Shown here in pieces: positions 11,635 to 51,496 of a stretch of DNA of 64,000 bases (within the stretch, counting starts at the first letter, position 1; each line of letters begins with the position of its first letter). The DNA is from Zingiber officinale (Eukaryota; Streptophyta; Magnoliopsida; Zingiberales; Zingiberaceae), in contig NC_055990.1 in assembly GCF_018446385.1 (NCBI RefSeq), positions 139,016,996 through 139,080,995 of the forward strand, written 5' to 3'. The position numbers and the translations under genes are program-made. Below the pieces are notes generated by a model, which was given only the letters and a program-made list of their open reading frames with translations, ran no database searches and was not told the DNA's origin.

Positions 11635-11699
11635 TGTTGGTACAGGAAGCATCCAACGATCGAACCTACACTACAAAAAAACAGGGCTTCAGAAACGGA

Positions 11700-12600
11700 T
11701 TTTTAAAACGAAAATAAAATCTGTTTTAGATTTATATAAATCAGAGACAGATTTAATACAGAATTATTAATCCGTTTCATTTTAGTAAATAATATATATT
11801 TTTAAAAAATTTAAGACAGAATTTAAAACAAATTTGAAACAAAATTACATATAAATTTTTATAAACAAAAATAAATATGAATTATAAACAGAATTTGAGA
11901 CAGTATAATTTCCGTGACAAATTTTGTTTATAAATTAATTAAAAGTTAAAACAGAAATAAAATCTGTTTTAGATTTATATAAATCAGAGACAGATTTAAT
12001 ACGGAATTATTAATTCGTTTCATTTTAGTAAATTATATATATATTTTTTAAAAAATAAGACAGAATCTAAAACAAATTTAAAACGAAATTACATATAAAT
12101 TTTTATAAACAAAAATAAATATGAATTATAAAATTTGAGACGGTATAATTTCTGTGACAAATTTGGTTTATAAATTAATTAAAAGTTAAAACGAAAATAA
12201 AATCTATTTCGAATTTATATAAATCAGATATAGATTTATTACATAATAATTAATTTGTTTAACTTTAATGAAATATAATATTTGAAAAGAAATTTAAAAC
12301 AAATTTTGATACGAAGCTATGTATAAATTTTATTTAAAAAATAAATATGGATTATAAACGGAATTTGTGACCGTTTAAACATTTAATGAAAATTTTAAAT
12401 AAAAATAAAATCTGTTTTATATTTAATGAAAATTTTAAATGAAAATAAAATCTGTTTTATATTTATATAAATCAGAGACATGAACTTATAAATATATTCA
12501 CTTTGACAAAATATAATATATGAAAAAACTTTAAGAAAGAATTTAAACCAAATTTAATATGAAATTACATATAACTTTTTATAAATAAAAATAGATATGA
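11700..12600. repeat. Subterminal tandem repeat of the first CACTA element
   Basis: Units of about 240 bp start at 11709, 11952, 12192 and about 12401, each with 'aaaataaaatctgtttta' followed by 'atataaatcagaga' or close variants. Repeats of this kind bind transposase in known CACTA elements. Confidence 0.8.
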
Positions 12601-12639
12601 ATTAGATTTTCTAACCCTTTCTCCTCATCCTAATTTGGC

Positions 12640-14880
12640 TTTGGCTTTATCAGAGCATGTACAAATTCGTTTTCCCCCTCCTTTGATTTTTTTTTCTCGT
12701 GCTTGGTGGCCATCTCATACGGCTGCAAGGTCGTTCGCAGCTGCGAGGTCGGACGTAGTTGTGAGGTCGGTCGCAACAACTTGAGGTTGTCTACAGTTGC
12801 TTCTCAAGGTCGCAAGATTCGCGACCTTTTCAATTAGCCCCCTCATGCGACCGTGAGGTCGTCCATCCTACAGTCCCTGAATTCTTGTTATTTTTATTGA
12901 TTTTTATTAATAATTGTGCACTTTTATTGTAAATTACGGTAATAAAATAATAATAATAATAATTAAATAATAAGATTTAATTGGGGAATAATCTTAACAG
13001 AATTTTAGAAATTTTTAAGATTTTTTTTTTGAAACTCGTAAGGTGTAATTAGAGGGGATGTATTTGCGGGCTTGAGAAATGCATATTTAGAATATCCAAT
13101 TTAGTAGGAGTTGATAAAAGAAATTACTTAGGCTTTAATTAAAATAAACCTAATTTTTCTAATTTAATTAATCAATTTTGGTTATAATTCCTCACCGTGC
13201 CCTACTCCTCCCTAATCGCCGAACCCTTGCTCACCTTATCTCGTCGCCGCCCCGATTATTCCTCATCTCTCGCGTCGTTTACTCTCTGCTCTTCTTCTTC
13301 TCCTCATCTTCTCCAACCGGCACCCCTTTTTCTTCTTCTGCGTCATCTTCCCTCCTCTGCCATCGTCTCCTCGTCGCGGAGGTCCTCACAGCGCCGATTG
13401 TCACGAGAGCACCGCCGACAGCAGTCCTTCTCTCCACGACCCTCACCAACACCAAGCTCTCTGGGCTATCAGGCGGCCCGATCCTCTTCTACATTTTCCC
13501 CTTGCATCTCTGCCCTAGATGCAACCGGCGTCATCGCATCCAACCACAATACCTGCAATTTGGGTGGCTAGCGTCGCCGCCATCTCTTTCACCGGCTGCC
13601 ACTTCTTCCTCTTCCATCTGCCACCGTCAGAGAGCTAAGTACACAGGAGAGTAGGGTTGTTCTTCCGTGTATCAGCAGTTGCAAGGGGTTACCACGCGTT
13701 GCCCCCTTCAATTGTGCCGTGGCCATCTGGTCAGCCACAAGGAGGTATGAGATGTTGTCATCTCTATTCCTATTCCCTGTTTGACAGCCGTCACAGCTTA
13801 TCAATAGATTGACATCTTCTGGATTGCAGATCCATTGCTGCGGTGACCCCATTTGTGCCTAGATTTGTGCCAATGTTGTGTATCAGTGAATTCTGAGGCA
13901 GTGAGGGTTGTTGGACAGATTTACCATCGTCGGAAGAGCCACAAACTGCTAATAAGGGTAATAATCTGAACCTGATTAGATTTATTGGGTTGTTTCTTTT
14001 ATCATGTTGGATGTGTGTTATGTTTCTTATTGAATGCTTATATCAAACTTGATCTCCCTTAATTAGATTGCACACACTTGACTTTAATTGTTTCATGCAC
14101 CCAACTTGTTTGATAAAATGTTCCGTAGTTAGGTTCTAATTCCTGCATGTTGTGTGTTCGGTGAAATGTCTCTTTCAATAATTAGTTTCAATCCGATACA
14201 TCTTAGTTTACTTAACTCTTGCTTTGTATTGCTCTTTCAATTGTTAAGTTTTATGTCTTCATTTAAATTCAATTAGGTTAAGTTAGATTAGGTTTCTTTA
14301 ATGCTCTAGGTTTTATTCCATGCTTAGTTTCATTAATTACTTTATGTTGACTTTTATTTTCTGCAATTGTAGTTAGGTTAGACTTAACTCTCAATTCTTA
14401 CATTGTATTTTATTCATTAGGTTTGATTTTATACTTGCTTTGCTATTTCAAATCTTAGTCTTAGAATCCAAAATCCAAACTCCCTTGTTAATTCTTTAGC
14501 ATTAACAACTATGGACTAATTAGTGGGTGATCATTGATACTGATTATGACTTTTGTATAATTTTAATTTATTTTTTATTAAAAATTCTGATATTGTAAGA
14601 CTTACTCGTTTCATATTTTGATTTGTTAGATTTTCTCAATAAAATTGGTTGGTTCATTAATCTGTACAAGAGAAGCAATTTATCTCATGAAATTCGAAGA
14701 CAGGGAGAGCAATGAAGGCATGGATGCTATTAGCTCGAGGATGGAGGAACAAAATATTGAAAAGGAAAAAAAAACTTGTTATTACAAAAAGTAGGCAAAG
14801 GGAAGAAAATCTCAGGAGATGATTCGAAAATGATTCAAGAAATGGAATGTACAAATCATTTATATCTAGGAAAATTTAGT
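12640..14880. other. Interior of the first CACTA element, possible captured sequence
   Basis: Composition shifts from AT-rich repeats to GC-rich text at about 12700-12860 (repeated 'gcgaggtcg'-like words) and 13190-13850, then back to a T-rich intron-like stretch (13980-14640). A short open stretch at 14680-14850 looks exon-like. I recognise no protein family, so capture of host DNA is possible but unproven. Confidence 0.35.
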
Positions 14881-15989
14881 TTTTATAGTTTGATTATTGG
14901 TCAAATTTGTTTGGATAATGTAAATATTTATTTATTTTAATGTTAATTGTATAATACTTTTGGAATTAGAAGTTATTTCTTTTTAATAATTTTTAATTTA
15001 TTTGAATTGAAGAATTATTAAATATATTGATGAAAAATATAAAAATATAATATAATAATATTTAATGATAAATTTAAAAATAAAATTATATACAGATTTA
15101 TAAATAGAATTGTAAACTGATTTATAAACAAGATTAATAACAGATTTAAAACAAAATTAGAGACAAAATTTACATTTGAAATTAATTTTATTTTGTTAAT
15201 TTGAAAACAGATTTATAAACAGTTTGTTCATCCGTTTCTAAAATTAGAGACGAAATATTTCCGTTTCAAAATTAGCTACGGGGCTTTCACTAACGGATTT
15301 ATGAGACGGAATATTCCGTCTCAAACTTTCTTTAGAGACGGAAAAATGATTTTCAGAGACAGATTTTTTCATCTCTAAAGCCCTGTTTTCTTGTAGTGCT
15401 AAATTTTGATAATGACAAAGGGTTCAAAGTTAAGGTTATTTGTGGTCTAACAAGTTTGAATGAGATTGCAGGAAAGTCCTAAGGGTTCTTAGGCAAAAGT
15501 CCTAGCTGCGGTTAAGCAGGTGGAAAATCCTAGGGGATGGTGACCCTAGGTCCTAGGGGATGGTGATCCTAGGCGGAAAGTCTTGGCGTGTCGAGAGCTT
15601 CAGGCAAAATCCTAGAGTCGGGGACTCTAGGATGAAATCCTGGTACCGCGAGCCGGGTGGAAGTCTAGACGGGTTGTAGAGCGGACGTCCAGCATGAAGA
15701 CTGGAAGCTTCGAACGCTGAGCAAAAGTCCAGTTGTTCTGGATGATCAATCTGGCAACAGGTAAACTCTCCTGAGTGGAGTAGGTGAGGATGCGTTCCCC
15801 GAAGAGGGAATAGTAGGTATCGATTCGACCTAGGGTTTCCGGAGGAAAACCGAAGTCAAAACCTGATAGTCCGAAGACTGTCAAATGCTTTATTTTTCAT
15901 ATCTATATTGTGCTAACTTTGTTTTGCAGGGTATGATTGATTTCTTGGACTAACATATTTTGCAGGAAGCGAATTGAGCATGTTTGACT

Positions 15990-16265: not shown

Positions 16266-16675
16266 GTAGGTCACAAATTGATGCACATCAACACTTCCGA
16301 TTGCGATCCTTCTACTATGCACTGCTCTACAAGACGACCCTACTACTCAGCAATGCAACTCTGACAATCGGGCGACGTGACTCTGACGATCGAGCGATGC
16401 GAATCTGGCTACTGAGCAACACAACTCCGATGACCAAAAGCACGACCATCCAGATATGGAAAGTAATGTGTGCAAATATTATGACTATTTACGCATATTT
16501 TAGCGTACATTTACTTACTTTATGCATACATATTCATTGTATAATCGCCTCTTTCATCTTGTACTCATTATATATACTCTTTTGTTCAGATATCCACTCT
16601 TTGTTTGGTTTTGTGTTGACAGAGACAACTTTCGAAGCAAAAGCAGAGATTATCGACACATCGGAACAACCCAAA

Positions 16676-16955
16676 GAACATGGTCGTGCAATCTCGCACG
16701 GCCGTGTGACCAGACCAAAGAGGAGAATTGCACGACCGTGCAACCCTGCAAGCCCGTGTAGCCAAGACCGAGGCACATCAGCACACGACCGTGCAACCCT
16801 GCACGACCGTGCCACCCCATGACCGAGACCAAGAAGTGCACGGTCGGGCATCCTCGCACGGCCGTGCCCCAGGAGATCAGAGAAGGGAAAGGGCATGGCC
16901 GTGCTTGCTAAATTGGCACGGTCGTGCCGCCGCAGCCGTGCCCTATCCTATATAA
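16676..16955 (+). promoter_or_regulatory. Athila-type LTR promoter: CACGRYCGTG palindrome array and TATA box
   Basis: About eight copies of words such as gcacggtcgtgc, gcacgaccgtgc and gcacggccgtg lie in 260 bp, ending just before TATATAA (16949-16955). The 3' LTR keeps the same array at 32740-32975 plus 35570-35645 (split by a solo LTR), with TATATAA at 35652-35658. Confidence 0.75.
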
Positions 16956-17731
16956 GGGTTTTACCCCTTTGTCTCCGGGGGAGGGGCCGGGGAAGTAAGC
17001 CATCGGTTGGAGAAACATCTTGGTGCCATCCCACGCCATCTTGGACCTTCGTCCAGCGATCTTCCATCACCATATCGACTCCAGAAGCAGAGAATTGGAT
17101 CCGAAGGCCACTCGTCATCATTGGATAAGCACATCTCTTCTTTCTTTCTTCGTGTTTGAAGATTGTATGTCTATCTACATTATGTCTTCGGGGATCTTTC
17201 TGGCACTTATGGAGTAGATTCCTTATTCTAGGACTAAGGAGTAGTTGTGGCTCGGTTTGATGTAAAACTCGTATTTATGCTTATACTCGTTGGATGATCT
17301 CTTATGCTTTGTCTTAATTGCATGTTGGTTAATTGTGTAGAAATTTGTCAGCCTCGTAGAGGGATTATCTCTAGATCGTACACTCGAGGGGCCCTAGTGA
17401 TAGAGGTAACTCGTTCATGGACATCTAGGATACTTCCTTGAAAGGAGAGATAAATTCTCCTCAAGGAAGTGAGAGACCAAACTTAGCTCTTATTCTCTAT
17501 TCTTAATATTACCAATAAAAGTTGTGTCCTCAAGATTTGCCGAGGCGCCCTAGTGACAGGGGTAAACCGTAACAGGACTTCTTAGGATCCCTCTTTATTC
17601 TGGTACATAAGAATAGTCACTTTAGCTTCCAACAAATACGTGTCGAAGGACAGTGAGTGTAGGATAGAACGTTACACATCAATACCACTACAACGAAACT
17701 GGCCTCCTAGAACTCCCCATAACCAAGTTTT

Positions 17732-20611: not shown

Positions 20612-22300
20612 TGCATGCAAAGAGCTAACCTTTCAGGACAGCTACTACCATTCGATCCAGAGATTGACAGGACTTTTCTGAGAAGAAGAAATCTACAGAA
20701 AGCATTCCAAGTAGCACAAGAATCCTCAGAAATGGCCGACAAACTGTTGAAAGATTATGCGGCACCATATACACGAGGGGTTCGGTCCAGCATCACCCGA
20801 CGACCCATTGAAGCCAACAACTTCAAAATCAAGCCTACAGTAATCCACATGGTCCAACAAAATCAATTCGGAGGAGGACCGCATGGGGACGCAAACCACC
20901 ACCTAGAGTTGTTCTACAAGATCTGTGGCACTATGAAGGTGAACGGAGTCCCTCCAGATTCAGTTAGACTACTTCTCTTCAGGTTTTCCCTGAAAGACAG
21001 AGCCAAGCAGTGGCTGATCTCCCTTCCAGCAAATAGCATATCATCCTGGGAGCAGTGTGAATAGAAATTTCTGGATAAGTTCTACCCACCCAGCAAAACT
21101 GCTCACATGAGGAACCTGATTGCTAGCTTCAAATAGATAGACTCAAAATCATTATTTGAAACTTGGGACAGATTCAAGAGCATGCTGAGACAGTGCCCCC
21201 ATCATGGTCTTCAAAAATGGTTGGTTCTACACACCTTCTACAATGGAATCAATTATCGCATGAAGGTATCTCTTGTGGCAAAAGGCAATTTGCTCTCCCC
21301 CAGCGCCCCCACCAACCCGTCCCTAGGCCAACACGGAGGAGGTAAATCATGGGTGACTACTAGCCATTAGTGCAAATGGCCAAGACATGGGGGACACATG
21401 AAGGTATCTCTTGATTCTGCAGTAGGAGGAGTATTGATGAACAAAAGCCTTGATGAAGCTGAAGAAATCATAGAGAATGTGGCACAGAACCACCATCAGT
21501 GGGCATATGAAAGATCTAGTGGCTCCTTCACAGGGAATCCAATTAAAGCGTCAGGGAAATTCGACGTGGACGCAGTCACACTCATGTCTGCAAAGCTGGA
21601 CACTTTGACCAAGACATTTGAAGCCATGGGAAGCAACACAGCTAATACAAATAGCATGTGTCTGCGACGCTTGTGGAAGTACGGATCACGCTCAAGACAC
21701 TTGCCCCTTTGGGCCGATTCAGGCACAGATAAAACAACTTGAGCAATGCAATGCAATGCAATAGCCAGCTACAATCAGAGGTAAAATAATCTGTACTCCA
21801 ACATATACAACCCTAGGTGGAGGAACCACCCAATTTCTCATACCGGAATAATCAGGACCAAGGACCAGTACATCAAAGTCATCAGCCTGGGCAACAGAGC
21901 TACCAATCTGGATAACAGATTTATCAACAACAGCAACCTTCACAACTGTCCATGATTGAAAAGATGCTTGAGGAAGCTCTCTCAGAACAAAAGGAGATGA
22001 AGAATGAGATCAAGCAACTGACTCAGAGGCTGGAAAATTTTTAAAAACATCAAAAGATGCAAGACAGCTAGATAGCACATATAGCTCAGTCTTTCTCAAG
22101 AGCACAAGGAATGTTCCCAGAAAAGCCTGATATAAATCCAGTAGAACATTGCAACTGCATCGAGCTAAGGAGCGGACGGACTTTGGGAGATCCCCCAGAT
22201 TACCTCCCAGAAAGAACTTGACTCAGAGGGAGAGCCCAATCAGATCCAGAACAAGGGTGGAGAGGAAATCACCGAGAAGACACAAGGAACTTTTCAAATA
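20612..22300 (+). pseudogene. gag of the Athila-type element (fossil)
   Basis: Predicted peptide from 20612 contains Athila gag hallmarks: a region with NNFKIKPTVIHMVQ, then LFRFSLKDRAKQWLISLPA and SSWEQ. Coiled-coil-like and gln-rich sequence follows to about 22300. It is broken in several places and carries a SINE insertion at 21276-21396. Confidence 0.8.
21259..21413 (-). mobile_element. SINE (family 1), 5' truncated, with perfect 17-bp TSD
   Basis: The 17-bp 'catgaaggtatctcttg' occurs at 21259-21275 and 21397-21413. The 121-bp insert between them (21276-21396) matches the body of the SINE at 232-420 ('ggaggtaaatcatggg' against 'gaaggtaaatcacgga'), without the tRNA-like head. The insertion is younger than the Athila-type element that hosts it. 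Confidence 0.88.
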
Positions 22301-26549: not shown

Positions 26550-26679
26550 TGATGTGCGCAAATATTATGACCATTTATGCATGTTTTAGCACACATTTAC
26601 TTACTTTATGCATACATATTCGTTGCATAATCGCCTCTTTCATCTTATACTCATTATATATCACTACAACAAAAATGTC

Positions 26680-26990
26680 AAAAGACAACACCACAAAGAC
26701 AACGATTTTGGAAGAAACTGTTGTGAATTTGATAAAAGACAACGATTTTTGACAAAACCGTTGTCTTTGATCTCCCATAAAATATAAAAGACAACAGTTT
26801 TGTTAAAATTATTGTTGTTGAGCGATTTTATTTTAAATCAACGACACATTTTACAACGGTTATCTAAAATCGTTGTCTTTAAATACTTTTTAGGGGTTAA
26901 GACAATAGTTTTATAAACCGTTGTGTTTTTATATTGTTTTATATAGTCAAAGACAACAGTTTTAATAAACCGTTGTCTTTGACTTTATTC
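26680..26990. repeat. Left subterminal repeats of the second CACTA element
   Basis: About ten copies of AAAGACAACG/CGTTGTCTTT in both orientations, often paired as hairpins around an A/T centre. They are mirrored at 32310-32630. Confidence 0.85.
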
Positions 26991-27169
26991 TTTCATTGTT
27001 TTCCCCTTCACATTTTTTATTGCAACCGTGTTTTACTTTCCCTTTCTGCCAAAAATTTTTAGCGCCATGTTTGCCCCTCTTAGCCTTCTCGAACCCTAAC
27101 CTATTTTTCTTTCCCTCTCCTTATACAATCTCTTCACACAATGAACCCTTGCTGTTTTTTCTTCCTCCT

Positions 27170-27456
27170 CCTTCCTTGGTCTCTGATCGAGTTGCCCCTC
27201 CTCCACGGTCAGACTAACTTCCACCCCGATCTTCTCATCTTTGGCACAAAATCCTTCTACACCTTCACCCTCAACCTCACCATCTTCTTGCTAGTCGTGA
27301 AGACCACTGCTCTCACTATGAACGTTGCCGGTGTCATCAAGGATGGGCTCCTCATTGCCTTCTCCTGGTCCATCATCCATGACACAATCACCCCCGTCAA
27401 CCTCTTCCTCTATCTACGACGTCACCTTCCTCGACGTTTCCTACTACAACAACGGG
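27170..27456 (+). pseudogene. Captured fragment: sugar-phosphate/nucleotide-sugar translocator
   Basis: The peptide [10 protein letters not shown]...[18 protein letters not shown] and [20 protein letters not shown] followed by TPVNLF matches the C-terminal transmembrane part of plant NST/TPT transporters (At3g17430-like, from recall). Between 27407 and 27412 the frame shifts, and the match continues in the next frame as [13 protein letters not shown], equivalent to GYGxAFLGVAYYN. Intact members are Golgi or plastid membrane exchangers of about 350 residues, so this is about a quarter of one. A T-rich leader precedes it. It is a transduplicated piece inside the CACTA element, not a working gene. 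Confidence 0.82.
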
Positions 27457-28156
27457 CCTCGTGGCCTCTTCTCCCACCACATCCATCCGCCTCTAGGGTT
27501 TCCTTGTTCTTCATGGTCCTCATTCTATCTGTGTTCTTTTTGCAAGAGTCTTCTACCAAAAAGGCTCTTCCATGGCTTTAGAGGCGAGAGGATCATAAAC
27601 ATATAGGCGAAGCAACATCAGACTCATAAGGCCTCGTACGTTTACTTGTGATAAATTTGAGTTAAGCAATGCTCTTTTGTTCGTCTTCCAATCTTCTTCT
27701 ATTGTTTTCTAACCCATTCTTTTGTTCTTCGATTAACATCACGAATCCTCAACTTATTATTTTCTGAGTTTTTTTTTTCTTCATTTGATGTGTTATTGGT
27801 TAATCTGAATTTGTGGTTATCTTTTTTTCTTGTGCAATGGTTTATTTCGAGTGCATTGCAGCATGTAGGATTTTATTTATTTTGGGGATTTCTATAGTTT
27901 CCTTCTACGTTACTGCTTTTGTTATTTGTTAAATATATTCGTTTGTTTAGTTTTGTAAACTTGCGTCGATGTATTATCCTTCATCTTGGATCGTCGTTTG
28001 ATGTGGCTGTTTTTTCCGAGGACGTAGTAATTGATTAACATTTATGTTTGCTTATAATTTTTTTTTTTATTTTGTATCTTCATTTTTTGTGTTCCCATTT
28101 GATTTAATCTACTTGTGGTTTAGTCTCTTCTTTTTTTAGATATTTTTCATGAATTA

Positions 28157-28426
28157 ATGGAGTCAAAAGGTGGGAAAAAGTCCAGTAGTAGTAGTTTGTT
28201 ACATTACAAAGCTCCCCTCCCCCTCGGCTATAGCATTAAAGACTTTCTACCATGTTGAGGAATCAATAAGTTCCAATCTGTTGCTTACTCCAATGTAAGA
28301 ACCTCCAAAAACATGTTAGTGACAAAGGAGAAAAAAATAGATCTTTGTTGTATATTAATTTGTTGTTCTCATGAAAATTAATTGTGACCATTTGATCTTT
28401 TGCAGTGTGTGAGGAAGCCATCTTGA
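28157..28426 (+). pseudogene. Captured small-protein gene, two exons, one premature stop
   Basis: Exon 1 (28157-28294) reads MESKGGKKSSSSSLLHYKAP, then LGYSIKDFLP, a TGA at 28256-28258, and GINKFQSVAYSN. Exon 2 (28406-28426) reads CVRKPS then TGA. The intron 28295-28405 has GT...AG ends and is in phase. This matches a conserved plant protein of about 50 residues that I recall as ...APLGYSIEDVRP.GGI.KFRSAAYSNC.RKPS; its function is unknown to me. Apart from the stop, which stands where the family has a Gly, the whole gene seems to be present, so the capture included an intron and came from genomic DNA. Confidence 0.7.
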
Positions 28427-28774
28427 TATTTCTTCTTATATTCTAAACCATTGGTTGAATATATGATATGAGAACTAGTCCTTCATAACTTGAGAATGGG
28501 AAAATATGAAAAAAGAGTATTTTTCTTTCATATTTTTTTTCTTATGCCCTTCATATCTACGTAGTTTATGCCTTCATCTTTTTTTCTTCTTCTCCTTTTT
28601 TACCTTCACTCTTTTTTGAGTGAATATTCTTATTGTTGTGTTATTAACATGTTTTATTTTGTTACACATCTAACTCATGTCAACAGATTAATGACAACTT
28701 GTGCAAAATCTCATTTTATCTATTTTTTAAAAAAATAAAAATTCTTCTCTTTGACTATCATATTCTTATTTCAG

Positions 28775-28844
28775 TGGAATACAAATTACCGAAACATTCA
28801 AAATACAGATGGAGGTGCAAAAACAACTTCAAGAACAACTAGAG
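28775..28844 (+). pseudogene. Captured exon: MYB-CC transcription factor (PHR-like)
   Basis: A 70-bp exon preceded by 'tttcag' and followed by 'gtaagt' encodes GIQITETFKIQMEVQKQLQE then QLE. This is the LHEQLE coiled-coil motif that follows the MYB domain in PHR1-like factors (phosphate-starvation and related responses). Only this exon is recognised; the MYB domain is not in the element. Confidence 0.8.
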
Positions 28845-29039
28845 GTAAGTTCCATGTGCATTATGAAAATATATATGATATTTTTATTGTTTTGCTTCAA
28901 GTAAATTTCTAAACCATCAAGGAAATGAAATGATAATAAATTTGTATGGATGAGAATCGTTAGGTACAAGCACCTCTCTGCTTTTGTGGATTCCCTCTTT
29001 TCTTCTCAAACTCTTGAATTTTTTTTTGTCGGATCTATG

Positions 29040-30345
29040 TAGTTGGATCCGTCAAGCGACAGGATGCACCGGTTGTGGCGGCTGCAGCGGCAGCTCCCGT
29101 CTGTCCCCGGGGCGGCTGATGCTGGCACGGTCGTGCCGTGCCTTGGAGCCTACCAAGAGAGATGATTCGGCCGTCCACACCGCAGCGGCGGTGGAAGCGT
29201 CCGACACCGCGGTGGGAGAGGAAGACATCGTCGATTATGAGAAGCTGGGTAAGGAGCTCGAGATCACTTCACCGCTGGAGATCATAGATCGGGCTCTGGA
29301 GATGTTCGGCAATGAAATCGCCATTACTTTCAGGTTAAAAGGCGTTATTTTTTATCTATTATTATTTTGGCCAGATTTTCTCCTCTCTGTTTTGGCATCT
29401 GTTGATTTTGTTTTGTTTTGGATATTGATTGTGTTTGAATATACCACAAATTACACAAATAGTACTATTTATGAAATTCAATACAACACAAGTGTTTGTT
29501 TGATTGTTTGTAGTTTGCACCAAAATATGTCATTTCTGTCTAGTACAACATTATTTTCCCTTCTAATTTTTTTTTTTTGATAAACTATGATACTGCAATT
29601 TAAGTTTTAAGGCAAGGGTGAGAATGTCTATAAACCCACAAATCAAACACCTTGAGAGATAAATAGGCAGTATAGAAGAACTCTTAGATTCTTGATTAAG
29701 AGAATGCATAGAGGCGATTTTTCAATCAGTCCCCTTCCTCAATTGTCTTGTTGAAGACTATAGTATGAAAGTTTTAAAGTTTGATGCATATATTTATGAT
29801 TTAAGATTTGTCACGGTAAAAGAGTATGATTTGTTTATTTATGATTTAAGGTGATTCAAGATAACAATTTGTTGGATAAGCATAAGAAGGTTAATCCTAT
29901 GCTTTTGATTGTTATGCTCTTGTGTGAAGCATAGATTATTCTCATCTTTGGAAGCCTTTAGACAGAAGATTGTAACTGACATGGGAGTTTTTTGGAACAA
30001 CGGAGCAGAGGATGTAGCTTTGATAGAATATGCAAAATTAATTGGTTGGCCATTTAGAGCCTTCAACCTTGATACTGGGAGGCTAAATCCTGAGACATAT
30101 AGGTTCTTTGATACTGTAGAGAAACACTACGGGATCAACATCGAGCACATGTTTCCTGATGTAGGGGAAGTACACGCCCTTATTAGAAGCAAAGGCCTCT
30201 TCTCCTTTTTCGAAGATGGGCACCAAGAATGTTGCCAAATGAGGAAAGTGAGACCTCTAAGGAGAATGCTGAAAGGCCTCCGTACATGGATCACTGGGCA
30301 GAGAAAGGATCATTCCCCTGGCACGAGAGCCAATATCCCTGTCAG
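29040..30345 (+). pseudogene. Captured fragment: adenosine 5'-phosphosulfate reductase (APR), two exons
   Basis: APR reduces APS to sulfite in plastids during sulfate assimilation. The exon 1 part (about 29040-29333) contains VDYEKLGKELE...SPLEIIDRALEMFGNEIAIT and ends at a 'cag|gttaaa' donor. The exon 2 part (30002-30345) reads [20 protein letters not shown]...[20 protein letters not shown] then [20 protein letters not shown] and [18 protein letters not shown], ending at 'cag|gtaatt'. The ECC and KVRPLRR signatures of the reductase domain are intact. The acceptor before exon 2 is not clear, and the thioredoxin-like C-terminal domain is absent. This is a long capture (over 1.3 kb with intron) and not functional as APR. 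Confidence 0.88.
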
Positions 30346-30885
30346 GTAATTAGTTTGTGTTTGATGTATCTCCCCTTTGATGGATCAAATCAAGCTCGAT
30401 TATTATAAGTTAAAGGTAATAATTTGCAGCCAAATGTGATGGATATAGTTTCCCATTAGATGTGTAATGGACATTTTTCTTGCAGGGGAATGGTTGGCTG
30501 ATCAAGAACCGGACAAGTAATATATATTATGTGACTTCCTTTTCTCCATAACATAAATAAATAAAGGAAATAATGCCTTCTAGTTTTAAGTCTGAAATTT
30601 ATTTCTTGTTTTTATTTTTGATTTCTCTCGCATGACATAATGTTTTCTGCTTGATTTTTCTGTTGGAGTAGCTCATGCTATCCGATGGTTTTGGAAGAAG
30701 AGAAACAAAATACCAAAATGAAATCTTTCATTTTAAAACTTCATTCTTCTTACATTTATAGTCTCCAGCTTTGCTTGGTGTTTAGAACAAAGTGAAAAAC
30801 TAGTTCAACAAGCCTATCATTGGATTAAGGTATTATTAATTTCCCCACTGTTAAAAGACAACGGATTTTATCCTTCCACAATCAG

Positions 30886-31687
30886 GATTCATTCTCTGGT
30901 TGACAATCAGAAACTGAGATTGAAGCAGCAGATTGAATACTATTTTAGGTACCTTAATATCTATAAGGTATTTTTTCAGACAGTTAATAATTTAAATTGT
31001 TTCTGCTGCAGCGTGGATAATCTCTGTAAGGACATTTTTTCTTCATGGCAAGATGGATGATCAAGGTTGGGTTCCAGTCTCATTGATTGCTACCTTCAAC
31101 ATGGTGAGTAATCCTTGTGATTATGGATATGAGGAGTAATTCCATGTTCAAAAAATTTAACTGCCTCTACTTCCTAACACATCACAATATATGCAGGTCA
31201 AAAGGGTGACCACGAGCACAGCGGTGATATTGAATGCTCTAAGAGATTCGACAGAACTTGAAATACAGGTACTTCACCCCCATCTTTTCCCCCCTTGATT
31301 CTACTCTTATCAGCTATGTTTCTTAAATAATCCATCTTGGTATTTTTCTTCAAAACTTGTTCCTGCAATCATCTATAGGCAGAGAAAATTAGAAGGCGAG
31401 AGGATTGGATGAGATGGTTACTGCCCTCGATGGAAAATCCAAATGGTCATGGTTCCACACCTCACTTGACATTGAACCATGATGATTCAGTCATCCACCC
31501 CATGCAGACTCTAGGATTAGAAGAATCTTCCAGCCAGGCCACCATGAGTCGTACTCAAACTGAGGTAGCACTTGATAGGGGATCAACATCCTGTAGCTGC
31601 AACAGCCAACAGGGTAGAGATCCAGCTCAACTAGAAGAACTTTGCCGCAGCGGTTCAGATCATGAAATAGGCAATGACAAAAGCTAA
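30886..31687 (+). pseudogene. Captured fragment: La-related protein 1 (LARP1), four exons
   Basis: Exon-like pieces 30886-30948, 31012-31103, 31197-31268 and 31379-31687 all have AG acceptors and GT donors where expected. They encode RLKQQIEYYFS, VDNLCKD..., GWVPVSLIATFNM, VKRVTTSTAVILNALRDSTE and EKIRRREDWMRWLLPS. This is the La motif of plant LARP1, an RNA-binding regulator of mRNA translation and decay. One extra T in the T-run after KDI shifts the frame in the second piece. Three introns of 63, 93 and 110 bp survive, so genomic DNA was captured. The last piece runs to TAA at 31685-31687 with Ser-rich text. Confidence 0.85.
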
Positions 31688-31732
31688 GTTTGGAGGAATG
31701 TGGCTGGAACTGATTCATGAATCCAAATATAG

Positions 31733-31967
31733 ATGGACTGGTTCCAAGGAATCAGAAAGCATGAAGAAGTCTACCAAGGATCATATAATGGCAAAGCCAC
31801 GATACCAATGAGGAAATTGATGATGGAAGTGTGGGAGTTTGCTAGAGAGGACATAGACAGGGTGACCTTTTCCCTCAAGGTTGACTTGGCTTACCTCCTC
31901 GTCTCCCTTCTCATTCTCATCCAAGCACCTTATTAAGTCTTCGACACCAACTTCATATTGGAAAAGG
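31733..31967 (+). pseudogene. Captured fragment: ALMT anion channel N-terminal part
   Basis: The peptide MRKLMMEVWEFAREDIDRVT then FSLKVDLAYLLVSLLILIQA and PY, an in-frame stop (TAA at 31934-31936) and VFDTNFI matches the start of the membrane domain of aluminium-activated malate transporter family channels (KVGLAVLLVSLLIL...APY.VFGTNIIW). Only about 60-75 residues are present, and the rest of the channel is absent. Confidence 0.75.
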
Positions 31968-32309
31968 TTGGTATGAAAAAATAAGCAAGTGAGAAAGAGG
32001 AGTCCAATGAAATCCTACAAGTTGAAGATTGTGATGGGACTTGAGTTGATAATATTAAGTGCAATCCTACATGGCATGAACCACCATTAAAAGTTTCTAG
32101 TCTTTTGGCTATTGTTCATTAGTTGTAAATAGAGTTTATTTATTTGTATTGGGATAAATTTTATTTGAACATGAGATATGTTTCTTCTTTTGTGATTGTA
32201 ATTCTTGTATAACTAACATTTTGAATGATATTGATGTGGGGAATATTCTTTCTTGATTATGATTCTTTATTATATTTTAAATTGAAATATGATATATTGG
32301 TATTAAAAG

Positions 32310-32630
32310 ATAATAATTTAAAAGACAACGGTTTAAAACCGTTATTGTTGTCTATCACCCTCAAAGACAATTGTTAAAAATCGTTGTCGTAGCCCCAAAA
32401 ATGGTTGTAACTGGTAGAAAAATGCTCTAAATAACAACAGTTTTAAACTCTTGTCGTTTCATTGAAAGACAACGATTTAAAATCGTTGCAAAATTGTTAT
32501 CTTTTCACTCAAAAACAATGGTTTAAAATCGTTGTCGTAGCCTCCCACTTTTAACAACACTGCCAATTACAACGGTTTTAAAGGACCTACGACAACGGTT
32601 TTTAACCGTTGTCTTTTAATGTTTTTGTTG
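32310..32630. repeat. Right subterminal repeats of the second CACTA element
   Basis: AAAGACAACGGTTTAAAACC and related words repeat about ten times in both orientations, mirroring 26680-26990. Confidence 0.85.
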
Positions 32631-32980
32631 TAGTGTATACTCTTTTGTTCGGATATCTGCTCTTTGTTTGGTTTTGTGTTGACAGGGACAACTTTCGGAG
32701 CAAAAGCAGCGATTATCGACGTACCGGAACAAGATAAAGAACATGGTCGTGCAATCTCGCACGACCATGTGACCATACCGAAGAGGAGAAGTGCACGGTC
32801 ATGCAAACCTGCACGGTCGTGCGACCAAGATCGAAGCAGATCAGCACACGACCGTGCAACCCTGCACGGTCGTGCCACCCCATGACCAAGACAAAGAAGT
32901 GCACGACTGTGCATCCTCGCACGACCGTGCCCCAGGAGCCGAGCCCGGACACCACACGGTCGTGTCAATTGGCACGGTCG

Positions 32981-35568
32981 TGTTAGAGTGTATACTAAAA
33001 GCCTAGCTTTTGTAAACATTTATTTTGAAATAAAGAATCACATTGGTCAAAAATGTCTATATTTATATGCTAAGTGTAGTTGTTCAATTAATTTATATTG
33101 TAAATAACATGGTGTGTGGTATCACACACAGAAGATCATGTTATCGGTTCTTTATAAATTATAAACAGTAGCTCACGACTAAGATGGAAAGGAACAAACC
33201 ATTGGAATAGTCGTAATATAATTAGGTATTAGTTTATCTTGACTAATATATTACACTAGTACACTCTGTTTGTATTGAGCAGGACCATTTAAGGTAAGTT
33301 CTTTTTTACTGACTTAATAAAAGAACAAGACCTTAGTTATTATGGAAGTATGTGCTCTTAATCCTAATATAATAACAAGCACATATATTTAGTATTTATT
33401 TCTTTAACTTATCAAAGGGTGAGATTTAGCTCGATAAATCAAAAGGCCCGATAAGTTGGGAAGTGATATTATTTATAGTGTGTGTTGTTGATTATAGAAG
33501 GAAAACTGTGTCCTAGTAATCTAGGTTGATAATGTCCCTAAGAGGAGCTCATAAGGATTGTCATGTTAAACCCTGCAGGTGGACTTAGCCCGACATGACG
33601 ATAAGGTTGAGTGGTACTACTCTTGGACTAAGATATTAATTAAAGAGAGTTGTCAGTAACTCATTTAATTAGTGACCATTCGACATCTTAAACACAGGGA
33701 GACTAACACACTCATAATAAGAAGGAACCCAAAATGTAATTTGAAATTGGTGCTGTAATTTAATAATAATTCTTTAGTGTTATGAATTATTATTGATGAA
33801 ATTAAGTTGGGTGTTCAGGGCGAACACAGGAAGCTTAATTTCATCAGGAGACCAAAATCAATTCCTTCTCTCGGTCTCTATCGTAGCCTCTTGTATATAG
33901 AGAATTATACCCACCACATACTCACTTCCTACCCACCCTTAGGTGGCTGACCAAGCAAACTTGGAGTCCAAGCTTGGGCTGGCCAAGGCAAGGGTGGGTT
34001 GAGCCAAGTTAAGGGGGCCGACCATAACTTGGAGCCCAGGCTTGTTGTGGTCGACCCTAATAAAATTAAAAGGATTTTATTTTAAAATATTTTCTTATGT
34101 GGATATCATGATTTTAAAAGAGAGCTTAAAATTTAAATCTTTCCTTTTATAGGTTTCTACAAAAGATTAAGTGAAAGATTTGATATCTTTCCTTATTTGT
34201 AGTTAAAAGGAATATTTTAATTTTTTTGATAAAACTTTCCTTTTTGTAACCATGTTCATGATTTAAAAAGAGAGTTTTAAAATTAAATATTTCCTTTTAT
34301 AAGTTTCTACAAAAGATTAAGAAAAGATTTGATATCTTTTCTTATTTGTAAATTGAAAGGAAGATTTTAATTTTAGAGAAAACTTTCCTTTTTGGAAATC
34401 ATCCACATGTTTTAAAAGAGATATTTTAATTTATAAAATTTCCTTTTATAACCAACCATGAAGGAAAAAATTATTAGAGAAATTTTTATTTTAAAAATTT
34501 CCGGAACCAAATAAGGAAGTTTTAATTTTGTTTTTAAAACTTGCCTTATTTAGGAGCTTGTGATGTGGCCGGCCATGATAAGGGTTAAAAGGAAAGTTTA
34601 ATTAAATTTTCCTTATTAACTAATGGCAAGGAGAATAAGGGAATTTTAATTATAATTAAATTTCCTTATTTGCCAAGACCAAGGAATATAAAAGAGGGGG
34701 TAGAGGTGTCTCACCTCACACAACATATCATCTAGTATTCCCTCTCCTCTTCCTTGGTGTGGCCAGCCCTATTCATCTCCTCTTCTCTTCTCTTCTTCTT
34801 TAGTGGCCGGTTCATCCCTCTCTTGGAGCTCTTGTTGGTGGCCGGTTCTTGCTAGGAGAAGGAGGAGAGAAAGGAGGCTTTGCTCTTGCATTCCTTGGAG
34901 CTTGAAGGTTTTGTAGCCGAATCTTGCTAGAAGGAAGGTGTTGGTGGTTCTCATATCGGTAGATCGTTGCCCACACAACGTCCGAGATAAGAAGAGGAAT
35001 ACGGTAGAAAATCAAGAGGTTATTGCTTACAAAGAAAGGTATAACTAGTAATTATTTTCCACATCATACTAGTTTTCTTTGTATGAATTCCAAACACAAG
35101 AGGCTAGAGATTCTAGATTTTCGGATTTGTAATTCGAAGTTGTGTTTCTTTTATTTTATTTATCGATCTTGTAATTCAATTGTTCTTTTTGGTTAAACCT
35201 AAGGTTATATAAGGAAATTAAATATTGAATTTCGTTAAGAGGCTTTGTCGAGGCAGTGGTGGATGTTCCCATACCCAAGAAGGCCAAGTGTCTCGCCATG
35301 TTTGACCTGGGAGCCGATTTTCGAAATAAATATTTAATTAAATTTGTAACCTAGGTGGATTTGGATCTGTAATGTTAAGTATCGTTTACGATCCAAATCT
35401 AAACCACTAAGAACAGATAAGTTAAATTTGGAATTAATAATGTTAAGTTCCGTTTGCGATTCCGAATTTAATTTCTAAAGAACATAATAGGTTGTTAGGA
35501 AAAGTTCGACACTTGTACAAAATTTTTGTACAGTGGAACCGGTACGATCTTCCTAGGACCAACCAACA
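32981..35568 (+). mobile_element. Solo LTR, 2.59 kb, inserted in the Athila-type 3' LTR
   Basis: Same family as 17732-20287: starts TGTTAGAGTGTATACT and ends ACCAACA. The target duplication ggtcg is at 32976-32980 and 35569-35573, so the insertion is independent of the other copy. It hit a cacggtcgtg palindrome of the host LTR. No coding domain is present. Confidence 0.87.
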
Positions 35569-36768
35569 GGTCGTGCAGCGCGATCAGAGAAGGGAAAGGG
35601 CACGACCGTGCCAAATTGGCACGGTCGTGTTGCCGCAGCCATGCCCTACCCTATATAAGGGTTTTAACCCTTTGTCTCCGGGGGAGGAGCCGGGGAAGCA
35701 AGTCGTCGGTTGGAGAAACATCTTGGTGCCATCCCACGCCGTCTTGGACCTCCTTCCAGTGATCTTCCTTCACCACATCGACTCCAGAAGCAGAGAATTG
35801 GATCCGAAGGCCACTCGTCGTCATTGGATAAGCACATCTCTTCTTTCTTTCTTCGTGTTTGAAGATTGTATGTCTATCTACATTATGTCTTCGGTGATCT
35901 TTCTGGCACTTATGGAGTAGATTCCTTGTTCTAGGACTAGGGAGTAGTTGTGGCTCGATTTGATGTAAAACTCGTATTTATGCTTATACTTGTTGGATGA
36001 TCTCTTATGCTTTGTCTTAATTGCATGTCGGTTGATTGTATAGAAATTTGTCAGCCTCGTAGAGGGATTATCTCTAGATCGTACACTCGAGGGGCCCTAG
36101 TGACAGGGGTAATCCGTTCACGGACATCTAGGATACTTCCTTGAAAGGAGAGACAAATTCTCCTCAAGGAAGTGAGAGACCAAACTTAGCTCTTATTCTT
36201 TATTCTTAATATTACCAATTAAAATTGTGTCCTCAAGATTTTCCAAGGCGCCCTAGTGACAGGGGTAAACTGTAACAGGACTTCTTAGGATCCCTCTTTA
36301 TTCTGGTACATAAGAATAGTCGCTTTAGCTTCCAACAAATGCGTGTCAAAGGACAGTGAGTGTAGGATAGAACGTGACACATCAATACCGCCACAACGAA
36401 ACCGACCTCCTAGAACTCCCCATAACCAAGTTTTACACTTCGACTTACTAGCTCTAGACTCTTCTTCCCGATCTTTCTTCTTTAGATTATTCCCAACCAT
36501 TGGTAGTCTAGCTAAAACTAAGTGAATAATTGTTATTTCTTATAACCAGTCTCTGTGGGATCGATATTTTTATTACTGACGATGAATCTGTGTACTTGCG
36601 GTTCGTAACAGAAAGTCATCGATATACTTTAATTATTGCACTTAAAATATAAATCATTGTACTTCAGTACTTGTAATTTCTCGAATTTATAGTGATTGTC
36701 CATCGAAAGTACTCTCACGTGCGAGCCTGGGAGTAGGAGTCGCCACATACTCTGAACCAAGTAAATCC

Positions 36769-38718
36769 TGTTGGGACAATTTTCCTAGGTCAAGTTTGAC
36801 CAATTTGACTAAGCTTGAGTTGAGTCAAGCTTGAATCGAGATTTGAGTTTTGATGTTTAAAAATATATGGAGATTGCTAGGGCAATCATCCAGTTGTGGA
36901 GATGGTCAAAGGGTTGACTAGGTTGAGAAGAAGACAAGTCAAGTAGGTCAGGGATGACAGGAGACTTGACTGGGTAAGTCCTAACTGGAGGTTAGGTGTC
37001 TGGAAGTCCTAACTGGAGGTTAGGTGTCTGGAAGTCCTAACTGGAGGTTAGGCAGTGGAGAAGTCCTAAGTGGATGTTAGGCAGTGGTGAAGTCCTAACT
37101 AGAGGTTAGGTAGTGGAGAAGTCCTAACTGGAGTTTAGGCAATGAAAAAGTCCTAACTGGAGTTTAGGCATCTGGGAAAGTCCTAACTGGAGGTTAGGCA
37201 AGAGAGAAGTCAAGTAGGTCAAGGTTGCTAGGAGACTTGACTGAGAAAGTCCAAATTGGAGATTAGGCAAAGGTAAGTCCAACAGGAAGGTTGGCAAGAG
37301 TGAAAATCCAAGTAGGTCAGTATTGACTAGACTTGGTGGTGAAAGTACTGATAAGTGAGCCAGGCAATTGGGAAAGTCCAAGTGTGATCTTGGTAAAGGT
37401 TGAAAGTCCAAGCATGTGGTCTTAGCAAGGTAAGTCCTAGTGTGACTTGGTAAGGAGAACTCGATAACTAGGATGAGGCTGAAGGAAGCTCTTGAAGGCA
37501 AGGCGTGAAGGATGAGAGATATCCGAGGGACGCGAGGCTGATGGAGGAGGCTAGAAGGCTAGTTCGAGGTTGATCGAGTGTGGTGTATAATCTGACAACT
37601 AGGATGAGGCTGAAGGAAGCTCCTGAAGGCAAGGCGTGAAAGATGGGAGATATCCGAGGAGCGTAAGGCTGATGGAGGAGGCTAGAAGGCTAATTCGAGG
37701 TCGGTCGGGTGTTAGCCAAATGCTAGGCATGGATACCCAACAGGTCATGGTTGACCGGGAGTTGAGTTTGCGACCTTGAACTTGAGTTTGAGGCAAGTTC
37801 AGGGTGTTCAATTAATCGGTCGATCAATTGAACCAGTGTCCAATCGATAGGTCGATCGATTGAACCAGTGTCCAATCGATCGGTCGATCGATTGGAGTGT
37901 GCTGCGAGTGTGGGATGACTCTAATCGATCAACCGATCAATTGGGAGTATTACTCGCAAGCACACAAGCTTTCCCAATCGATCGAGCGATCGATTGGGAT
38001 CTCCAATCTATCAGTCGATCGATTGGGGAGGAGAAGCTCTCGCGCGAACGCGAGAGCATAAAATGGGTTTGAATCAATCGGCCGATCGATTCAGATGGTC
38101 CCAATCGATCGGTCGATCGATTGGGAAGTGACCGTTGAGCAGGAAACGAGTAATGGACGACTGGGATTGTGCAGATGTGACGTGACAATCGATTGGGACT
38201 AATTTTGATCAATTGGGAGCACTGTATAAAGCCTGGGCGGAGCGTTTTCTTCGCCAGAACTTTGCGTTCTTTCCTGCGATTCTTCTGTGACTTTCACAGC
38301 GACTTCTCCAAAAAACTCTCCACCAGTCTTGAAGGTTCTTGGAGGCACGTCCAAGTCAAGAGGTGAGTTGTAACAAGAAGAAGAAGCTAGGGTTAGGGGT
38401 TTATTGTACAAATCTTGTAAGATTTCCCTTGTATTTGCTTCTTTTTATATTCTTGTTGTATTGTGAGCTTGTAAGGCTTCTCCGCCTTCGGTAGTTATCA
38501 CAAAGGAGTGATTTTATAGTGGAGGGTGTGTGAGTGTGTGGATCCTTAGACTAGTCACCTCTGTTTGAGGTGGATACCAAGTAAATCCCTAGAGTTAGCG
38601 TTGTTGGTGTTTGGTTCTTGTATTTTCTGCTGCACATCATCCAGAAGAAACAAACCAATTCAAGCACGATGAACCGCTATTCACCCCCTCCCCTCTAGCG
38701 GACATCATGGTCCCATCA
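36769..38718 (+). repeat. 5' LTR of the gag-only copia element
   Basis: It contains two stacked arrays: about eight copies of a 28-29-bp unit with the hairpin CCTAACTGGAGGTTAGG (36977-37202), and about nine long palindromes of the type AATCGATCGGTCGATCGATT (37805-38215). TATAAA follows at 38225-38230. Confidence 0.88.
37805..38230 (+). promoter_or_regulatory. Copia LTR promoter: TCGATCGA palindrome array and TATA box
   Basis: Near-perfect palindromes of 16-24 bp built from TCGAT units recur every 30-60 bp and end just before TATAAA at 38225. A perfect hairpin GCTCTCGCG-CGAA-CGCGAGAGC (38036-38057) lies among them; its stem is unchanged in the 3' LTR (44639-44660). Confidence 0.78.
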
Positions 38719-38757
38719 ATTAGTATCAGGGCGAGGTCGCTCTTCTATGGACTAACC

Positions 38758-43427: not shown

Positions 43428-45316
43428 TGTTGGGGTAATTTTTCTAGGTCAAGTTTGACCAGTTTGACTAAGCTTGAGTTGAGTCAAGCTTGAGTCGAAA
43501 TTTGAGTTTTGATGTTTGACAATATATGGAGATTGCTAGGGCAATCGTCCGATTGTGGAGATGGTCAAAGGGTTGACCAGGTTGAGAAGAAGACAAGTCA
43601 AGTAGGTCAGGGATGACAAGAGACTTGACTGGGTAAGTCCTAACTGGAGGTTAGGTGTCTGAAAGTCCGAACTGGAGGTTAGGCAGTGGAGAAGTCCTAA
43701 CTGGAGGTTAGGCAGTAGAGAAGTCCTAACTGGAGTTTAGGCAATGGAAAAGTCTTAACTGGAGTTTAGGCATCTGGGAAAGTCCTAACTGGAGGTTAGG
43801 CAAGAGAGAAGTCAAGTAGGTCAAGGTTGACAAGACACTTGACTGGGAAAGTCCTAATTGGAGACTAGGCAAAGGTAAGTCCAACAGGAAGGTTGGCAAG
43901 AGTGAAAATCCAAGTAGGTCAATGTTGACTAGACTTGGTGGTGAAAGTCCTGATAAGTGAGCCAGGCAATTGGGAAAGTCCAAGTGTGATCTTGGCAAAA
44001 GTTGAAAGTCCAAGCATGTGGTCTTGGCAAGGTAAGTCCTAGTGTGACTTGGTAAGGAGAACTCAATAACTAGGATGAGGCCGAAGGAAGCTCCTGAAGA
44101 CAAGGCGTGAAGGATGGGAGATATCTGAGGGACGCGAGGTTGATGGAGGAGGCTAGAAGGCTAGTTCGAGGTTGATCGAGTGTGGTGTATAATCCGACAA
44201 CTAGGATGAGGCCGAAGGAAGCTCCTGAAGGCAAGGCGTGAAGGATGAGAGATATCCGAGGGACGTAAGGCTGATGGAGGAGGCTAGAAGGCTAGTTCGA
44301 GGTCGGTCGGGTGTTGGCCAAATGCTAGGCATGGATATCCAACATGTCATGGTTGACCGGGAGTTGGGTTTGGGACCTTGAATTTGAGTTTGAGGCAAGT
44401 TCAGGGTGTTCAATTAATCGGTCGATCAATTGAGCCAGTGTCCAATCGATCGGTCGATCGATTGAACCAGTGTCCAATCGATCGATCGATCGATTGGAGT
44501 GTGCTGCGAGTGTGGGATGACTCCAATCGATCGGCCGATCGATTGGGAGTATTACTCGCAAGCATAGAAGCTTTCCTAATCGATCGAGTGATCGATTGGG
44601 ATCTACCAATCTATCGGTCGATCGATTGGGGAGGAGAAGCTCTCGCGCGGACGCGAGAGCATAGAATGGGTTTGAATCGATAGCCCGATCGATTCAGATG
44701 GTCCCAATCGATCGGTCGATCTATTGGGAAGTGATCGTTGAGCAGGAAACGAGCAATGGATGGCTGGGATTATGCAGATGTGATGTGGCAATCGATTGGG
44801 ACTAATTTTGATCGATTGGGAGCACTGCATAAAGCTTGGGCGGAGCGTTTTCTTCATCAGAACTTTGCGTTCTTTCCTGCGATTCTTCTGTGACTTTCAC
44901 AGCGACTTCTCCACAACTCTCTCTGCCAGTCTTGTAGGTTCTTGGAGGCACGTCCAAGTCAAGAGGCGAGTTGCAACAAGAAGAAGAAGCTAGGGTTAGG
45001 GTTTATTGTACAAATCTTGTAAGATTTCCCTTGTATTTGTTTCTCTTTATATTCTTGTTGTATTGTGAGCTTGTAAGGCTTCTCCGCCTTTGGTAGTTAC
45101 CGCAAAGGAGTGGTTTTATAGTGGAGGATGCATGAGTGTGTGGATCCTTGGACTAGTCACCTCTGCTTGAGGTGGATACCAAGTAAATCCCTAGAGTTAG
45201 CGTTGTTGGTGTTTGATTCTTGTATTTTCCGCTGCACATCATCCAGAAGAAACAAACCAACTCAAGCGCGACGAACTGCTATTTACCCCCCTCTAGTGGA
45301 CATCACGGTCCCAACA
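43428..45316 (+). repeat. 3' LTR of the gag-only copia element
   Basis: It aligns along its length with 36769-38718, including both palindrome arrays (hairpin units about 43636-43805; TCGATCGA palindromes 44410-44815). Confidence 0.88.
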
Positions 45317-45448
45317 AATCCTTGGTGTTTGTGTTTTATTTGTCTCTCTCTTATTTCCGCTACGTATTTACTTTGAGTTTATTTGAAACAAACGAATTAG
45401 CCACGAGCGCTATTCACCCCCCCCCCCCTAATGCTTTTCGATCCTACA

Positions 45449-49859: not shown

Positions 49860-50422
49860 ATTTATTTATCTCCTTTTATATATATATATATATATATATA
49901 TACTTTATTTTCATATATGTTACATAATATATTAAATCTTATTTTTTTCTTATTCTTATTTAATTATATATTTTATATTATATATAATATATTATTTATA
50001 GAAATAGTATGTTACACGTGTTTCTTATGTATTTTTTCTTATTTAATTTTATTTATGCTTTATAATTTATATTATACATTTTATATAATATAGTATATAT
50101 ATCTTATTTCTATATTAATTAGATGAATAATCTCTATAAATTTATAGATACTAAATTTTATCCCTAAATGCTAAGTCCATTAATTCCTATCTACTAAGTT
50201 TTATCCACATGTTTTAATTTCATACTTGTTTAATCTTTATTTACACTATATAATTTATATAATATATTATATATTATATATTATATATTATATATAATAT
50301 TTCTTTGTTACACGTTCTTACATTTTTTAATACTATATAATTTACATTATATATTTTATATTATACATAAAATTTCTTATTTACATGTTCATACATTTAT
50401 TTTTATACTATATAATTTATAT

Positions 50423-50463
<41 letters not shown>

Positions 50464-50465
50464 TA

Positions 50466-50517
<52 letters not shown>

Positions 50518-50927
50518 TATATAATTCCATATATATCCACATATATAAAAATTCGTAAGTTATAGGTTTTATAAATACTAAATCATTTTTTATTTTTATA
50601 AAACTTAATACTAAGTATAAATAGAAGCCTATATCCATATACTAATTTTATATTTATATATATCCATGTTTATATTAACTATACATGGTAACATATAATT
50701 CATGTTATAGTTTCTTAATACTAAGTTATTACATTAATTTTGTATATATATTTATATCCATATACTAATTATATATATATCCATGTATACATCACATATA
50801 TATGGTAATATATATAATTTGTATATTTCGATATTACAATTTCTTAATAATTTACATTATATATTTTATATTATACATAATATTTCTTATTTACATGTTC
50901 ATACATTTATTTTTATACTATATAATT

Positions 50928-50993
<66 letters not shown>

Positions 50994-51394: not shown

Positions 51395-51425
<31 letters not shown>

Positions 51426-51450
51426 AATACTAAATATTTATATATTGGTA

Positions 51451-51496
<46 letters not shown>

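Follow-up and report, generated by a model that had tools for sequence, protein, structure and literature searches.

CACTA transposons that carry pieces of host genes have been described in several plants. In soybean, the wp allele harbours Tgm-Express1, a 5.7-kb CACTA element with exon and intron pieces of five unrelated genes, for which cassette-exon splicing was shown (PMC1947982). The Pack-CACTA elements of Arabidopsis and maize are non-autonomous, have CACTA terminal inverted repeats (TIRs) and contain genic DNA from several loci (PMC8903248), and the CACTA elements of wheat chromosome 3B account for 140 captures that took in 145 genes, roughly one each, with exon shuffling and an inferred recent exchange of DNA between two families (PMC4290129). 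Here we analysed a 64,000-nucleotide stretch of Zingiber officinale (ginger) DNA (the window; C5:139016996-139080995 of the assembly), which contains, at 26662-32635, an element that is very probably a non-autonomous Pack-CACTA of ginger, probably assembled by stepwise capture from at least six genes and by module exchange, with mostly passive cargo. Like Tgm-Express1, it is a CACTA element with exon and intron pieces of several unrelated host genes; unlike Tgm-Express1, which lies in a gene intron, it lies in a long terminal repeat (LTR), is known from DNA alone, packs pieces of six donor genes into 6.0 kb and is one member of a mosaic family with many copies. With the Arabidopsis and maize elements it shares the non-autonomous structure, the TIR type and the multi-locus cargo, but here the combinations of shared modules can be followed through the individual copies, and a conserved leader with upstream open reading frames (uORFs) is among the modules; with the wheat elements it shares gene capture and exon shuffling, but not the number of genes, six in a single element. 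A preliminary description of this DNA had called six donors in 6 kb unusually rich, which holds against Tgm-Express1, though by just one gene. The element is thus a rich case of a known kind, and what is new is a matter of degree: the copy-by-copy modular record and the captured uORF leader.

The interval was inserted as one CACTA element. Its 28-bp TIRs (26662-26689 and 32608-32635) are complementary at 25 of 28 positions (89%), the 3-bp target site duplication (TSD) TAT lies at 26659-26661 and 32636-32638, and ACAACGGTTT-type subterminal repeats occur near both termini. The element sits within the 3' LTR of a retrotransposon and is missing from the 5' LTR, and this paralogous LTR preserves the empty site: the sequence left of the element (to 26661) aligns to 16463-16575 and that on its right (from 32636) to 16573-16926, so that the two matches overlap by 3 bp, the length of the TSD. 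Flanks that meet in this way at an unoccupied LTR indicate a single insertion event. We collected element open reading frames (ORFs) of at least 30 amino acids on both strands and scanned 82 of the 128 with Pfam, namely 10 chosen ORFs and, as a control, 72 of the 118 others, the remaining 46 being mostly very short or within the terminal repeats; no transposase family was found among those scanned. An Rfam scan gave no match inside the element and one elsewhere in the window. The CACTA ends, the TAT duplication and the lack of a transposase put forward in the preliminary description are therefore upheld, and its concern that the TIRs might belong to two different elements is settled by the empty site. 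Together with host fragments that have donors elsewhere in the genome, found for five of the six, these features place the locus among Pack-CACTA elements.

On the evidence of Pfam, PDB and donor comparisons, the six fragments are derived from unrelated host genes, and they lie on one strand in the order first described (Table 1). Among the Pfam matches, which were listed for the 10 chosen ORFs, the AdoMetDC leader, Myb_CC, PAPS_reduct and ALMT each scored above the curated cut-off; the APS reductase (APR) piece matched PAPS_reduct at 3.9e-25 and the APS reductase structure 2goy in PDB at 1.5e-39. Single LARP1 exons gave La matches of 1.2e-6 (28.7 bits) and 0.085 (13.2 bits), both below the cut-off of 37.1. 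The translocator fragment alone had no match in Pfam or PDB, and a protein search with it returned two unnamed ginger models without Pfam domains; it was identified through ginger genes that agree with it at up to 83.5% over 297 bp and whose exon matches Pfam TPT at 3.4e-7. The second fragment had been described as a gene for a small protein of roughly 50 residues with an intron. The intron stands but the label does not: the Pfam AdoMetDC_leader match identifies it as the 5' leader of SAMDC, a polyamine-sensing leader that serves translational control, and the only match below 0.05 in the control scan was the remainder of this leader (0.012). In plant AdoMetDC messages a tiny uORF overlaps the small uORF by one nucleotide (PMC7503886); the ginger copy keeps this one-base overlap but is decayed and detached from the AdoMetDC main ORF, and its dual uORF is no longer intact because of a premature TGA in the small uORF. 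A sibling gene model, P0125, aligns with the AdoMetDC leader profile over its full length (1-51 of 51). Frame lesions affect three further fragments: a frameshift near the 3' end of the translocator piece, a +1 frameshift in LARP1 exon 2 that is lacking in 10 aligned siblings, and an in-frame TAA in the ALMT piece.

The fragments abut closely. The translocator match reaches at least 27446 and the SAMDC leader starts at 27457, the MYB-CC match reaches at least 28950 and the APR piece starts at 28952, and APR ends at 30371, where a module break recurs in siblings at 30370. All six lie on the plus strand, which random orientation would produce with a chance of about 3% (2 × 0.5^6); a non-random orientation is suggestive only. 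The one-strand rule was examined in the window copy alone, sibling copies having been viewed on the element plus strand.

Table 1. Features of the ginger Pack-CACTA element and of the retrotransposon that hosts it (window positions).
Feature	Position	Strand	Details
Pack-CACTA element	26662-32635	+	5974 bp; TIRs, TSD TAT, empty 5' LTR
5' terminal and subterminal module	26662-27030	+	ACAACGGTTT-type repeats; right edge is the analysts' division
Sugar-phosphate/phosphate translocator (TPT family) exon fragment	27150-27446	+	Minimum extent; edges set by the stretches compared
SAMDC (AdoMetDC) 5' leader	27457-28439	+	Upstream leader, tiny uORF, small uORF, intron; Pfam AdoMetDC_leader 9.3e-9
Tiny uORF ATGAATTAA	28149-28157	+	One-base overlap with start of small uORF
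Small uORF	28157-28434	+	Intron 28295-28405; premature TGA 28256-28258
MYB-CC gene piece	28690-28950	+	Exon 28775-28844 and flanking intron sequence; edges set by the stretch compared; Pfam Myb_CC_LHEQLE 6.8e-9
APS reductase piece	28952-30371	+	Part of exon 1 (to ~29333), intron 1, exon 2 (to ~30345), start of intron 2
LARP1 piece	30370-31684	+	Four La-domain/C-terminal exons with introns; left edge from sibling module breaks
ALMT first-exon piece	31750-32110	+	Pfam ALMT 2.7e-6; in-frame TAA 31934-31936; right edge approximate
3' subterminal and terminal module	32161-32635	+	Left edge is the analysts' division
Host LTR retrotransposon	16464-36610	+	TSD GAAAG; LTRs 16464 to ~20468 and 26550-36610; each LTR with an 850-bp repeat

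The preliminary description had proposed searching the same genome for the donor loci and comparing introns. Donor genes were identified for five of the six fragments, MYB-CC being the weakest, and for LARP1 a candidate only; for these five, this answers the concern in that description that no intact genes might exist elsewhere in the genome. The SAMDC leader matched C12:108918599 at 79.8% over 1012 aligned positions (window 27457-28430) and C11:100320015 at 75.0% over 1023 (27457-28439), with gaps counted and introns included. The APR piece matched C17:135567616 at 85.7% over 1453 aligned positions (28952-30371), from intron 1 into intron 2, with the next, uncaptured exon continuing downstream; an APR paralogue (L044) matched at just 72-73%, in two pieces. 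Both donors thus agree with the element through their introns. For ALMT the best locus was L055 (C6:3824949; 89% over 212 positions), and four of the 14 exon-1 loci read matched; for the translocator it was L064 (C9:95199777; 83.5% over 297 positions), six of the 10 pattern matches having been read. A search for the MYB-CC exon with a degenerate pattern had zero matches in the genome, but the DNA search, in which 40 of 48 candidates were scored, found C4:130371147 and C110:70960 at 82% over positions 1-219 of 261, and both appear gene-like because the second half of the domain follows about 1.1 kb downstream. The LARP1 search (31099-31684; 40 of 41 candidates scored) returned 40 places at 92-100%, of which the pair C1:23683518 / C2:27344841 (92-93%) is the best candidate donor. 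Distant LARP genes matched the fragment protein at 52-68%, and nine small LARP exon pieces (L067-L075) belong to LARP genes just distantly similar to the fragment.

The genome search also found further copies with the same TIRs, which the preliminary description had suggested looking for. With a 339-bp probe from the 5' end (26662-27000), 40 of 1645 candidates were scored, the window included, and all were 91-100% identical. We read 20 of the 39 other scored copies, and the module counts refer to the stretches read. Fourteen of these siblings have identical 3-bp TSDs next to a matching 3' TIR, one (L018) has AAT/ATT, and five have no 3' end within the stretch. The translocator is present in 13 siblings and partially in one more, LARP1 in nine and partially in another, the SAMDC uORF in four, MYB-CC and APR exon 1 in two each, and ALMT in none. 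Translocator and LARP1 modules surround a different middle block in L012, L013, L014, L022, L023 and L025; in L012 this block matches DNA ligase weakly (1.4e-4, under the cut-off), and a related model, P0124, carries the UniRef name ATP-dependent DNA ligase family. Five of the six fragments are found in L011, and translocator, SAMDC and LARP1 in L027; L009, L017, L018, L019 and L020 have a common structure, which in L009 includes ribosomal S21e (9.5e-18), and L010 is a 726-bp miniature. The complete fragment order recurs at one further locus, on C2, where 26662-29672 (L026, 94.2%) and 29663-32022 (L059, 95.0%) are represented in identical order by halves about 13.8 kb apart, split by an insertion, with the 3' end outside the stretch seen. 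Module matches on C1 are likewise in the window order, judged from match positions alone. The differing module subsets, taken with this second six-fragment locus, suggest that assembly was probably stepwise with module exchange, and what had been presented as a single exceptional element looks rather like one product of such exchange within a family.

ALMT was followed in a separate search, in which 40 of 659 candidates were scored: four, the window included, cover the full 406-bp query and 36 are partial, 35 of them beginning at position 61 or later. In L042 (2.8 kb read) ALMT and the 3' end occur with none of the other five modules, and the ALMT first exon is longer and preceded by different upstream sequence, while L041 (C10:56154000-56160600) joins LARP1 to ALMT. 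L041 also contains extra exons matched by ZIOFF_032031 (313 amino acids, ~90% identical), for which Pfam lists La only and which we take to resemble a casein-kinase-type protein. With these exons counted, the family has probably drawn on more than six donors.

Kimura two-parameter (K80) distances from the window fragments to their donors are 0.176 for the translocator, 0.129 for SAMDC, 0.104 for ALMT and 0.082 for APR, and those to other copies are 0.033-0.061, indicating that the captures are older than the spread of the copies; on these distances they probably took place at different times. In the uORF, a 6-base insertion is common to all five element copies aligned and lacking in the four aligned SAMDC sequences, which points to one SAMDC capture followed by spread. 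Between the 5' and 3' LTRs of the host retrotransposon, identity over 3072 aligned sites is 84.4% (K80 0.177), and the rice substitution rate is 1.3e-8 per site per year; at this rate the LTRs would be about 7 million years old, an upper bound for the age of the CACTA insertion.

We propose that a CACTA family with these TIRs would have taken up genomic pieces, exons together with introns, of at least six host genes, probably stepwise, and that modules may then have been swapped or lost within the family through recombination, gap repair or hybrid excision. The closest published model is the hybrid excision of neighbouring elements (PMC8903248, PMC13317346). Transposase supplied from elsewhere would have driven this copy into the 3' LTR of the older retrotransposon, where the TAT duplication records the insertion. 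The cargo would be mostly passive, its splice sites and single orientation offering potential cassette exons once transcribed.

Several points weigh against this account. The order of captures is only suggestive, as the donor comparisons mix coding and non-coding DNA. The translocator distance is high for coding DNA, so the donor may be a different paralogue, and the true one may lie among the unread pattern matches. About 20 further MYB-CC places match at 74-88%, several of them more closely than the named donor does, and may be other genes or diverged copies of the element. For LARP1, the C1/C2 pair is a candidate donor that may itself be an element copy.

Among the alternatives, the one that fares best, though we consider it unlikely, is that a single lineage captured all six fragments and that the other combinations are its deletion derivatives, formed with no exchange between members. 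The six-fragment copy at a second locus fits this history, and many sibling structures are compatible with internal deletion of a longer element. However, the window query is covered only in part by 36 of the 40 scored ALMT matches, the longer exon and different upstream sequence of L042 could not arise by deletion of the window type, the middle blocks of siblings contain other genes, and donor distances spread about twofold.

It is very unlikely that the element or some of its siblings are functional chimeric genes, transcribed, spliced across fragment borders and under selection, although several ginger gene models join modules and the six window fragments share one strand. The spliced chimeric RNA envisaged in the preliminary description is hinted at only by gene models in sibling copies. 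Nine of the 11 proteins matching the LARP1 protein query are ginger models. Two of these models fall within element copies, ZIOFF_063215 in L021 (exact at 227 of 228 residues) and ZIOFF_028896 in L012 (191 of 192), and both join translocator-, ligase- and LARP1-type exons, of which Pfam lists La only, the others having been recognised by reading the sequence. ZIOFF_070037 matches the AdoMetDC leader, La and, weakly, DNA ligase but agrees with L027 at just 190 of 292 residues, and ZIOFF_059794 begins with a MYB-CC exon followed by APR, for which Pfam lists PAPS reductase only. In RefSeq, isoform X2 of LOC121992425 shows by eye the order translocator, ligase, LARP1 (Pfam lists La only). Isoforms in the RefSeq pipeline are usually evidence-based, and those of LOC121992425 may suggest transcript support. 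Against function, the supporting models are predictions and vary between copies, and the window copy has the uORF stop, the LARP1 +1 shift, the ALMT TAA and the translocator frameshift. In a further ginger protein, P0131 (probable protein phosphatase 2C 5), a different N-terminus is combined with element-type La exons at the end, possibly an element exonised in a host gene.

We give still less credence to the idea that the family is a combinatorial exon library with a polyamine-responsive switch, in which, in some copies, an intact pair of tiny and small SAMDC uORFs would precede chimeric frames such as ligase-LARP1 or MYB-APR that are transcribed, with translation set by polyamines. That the fragments were inserted separately, one nested in another, or that two unrelated TIRs were brought together by faulty assembly, has a negligible probability: nested repeats are present in the region, but at the unoccupied 5' LTR the flanks meet and share 3 bp, which rules out unrelated TIRs, identical module junctions recur in other copies, and the six fragments stand in the same order at a second locus. 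Equally remote is an origin by cDNA retro-copying or by Helitron or Mutator-like element (MULE) capture, even though multi-gene capture is also described for Helitrons and Pack-MULEs: the retained SAMDC and APR introns exclude cDNA, and CACTA TIRs with identical 3-bp TSDs in 14 of the 20 siblings read exclude the other two, as Pack-MULEs have a TSD of about 9 bp with MULE TIRs and Helitrons have neither TIR nor TSD.

The family, very probably of non-autonomous Pack-CACTA type with mostly passive cargo, gives, within one genome, a copy-by-copy view of how CACTA elements gather and reshuffle exons, with named donors, sharp junctions, module mixes and staggered distances. It also has a practical side, since element copies are present in public ginger gene sets as seemingly ordinary genes (two exact cases and others similar), and such annotations will mislead gene-family counts. 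With the captured SAMDC leader, a known translational-control cassette would be carried about by a transposon; in the excerpts seen of the open-licence literature we found no description of a transposon-borne SAMDC leader in ginger or in Pack elements.

Gene pairs on contigs C1/C2, C3/C4, C5/C6 and onward led us to infer a haplotype-resolved assembly. By these pairs C5 belongs with C6, where none of the 40 LARP1-module places lies, and the insertion seen in the window may therefore exist in one haplotype only.

Other features of the window surround the element. The 850-bp repeats of the two LTRs (16875-17731 and 35582-36434) are 94% identical and occupy different LTR positions, apparently as two independent insertions. 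The retrotransposon interior contains a match to the plant small nucleolar RNA R71 at 21139-21210 on the minus strand (score 40.2, gathering threshold 40). A second CACTA element spans 11669-15398, with TSD CTA and TIRs starting CACTACAA(A/G)AAAACAGGGCTT; in 10 of its 36 listed ORFs no host gene fragment scored above the curated cut-off (best 0.015). Host gene sequence was seen at 1993-2490 (a CAP, PR-1-like, protein), 4962-5543 (a DUF538 protein) and 8820-9350 (a peroxidase exon). Direct repeats at 36769-38719 and 43428-45317 are 91% identical and are possibly the LTRs of another retrotransposon, and the stretch 50001-52000 is strongly AT-rich (17% GC) with internal repeats.

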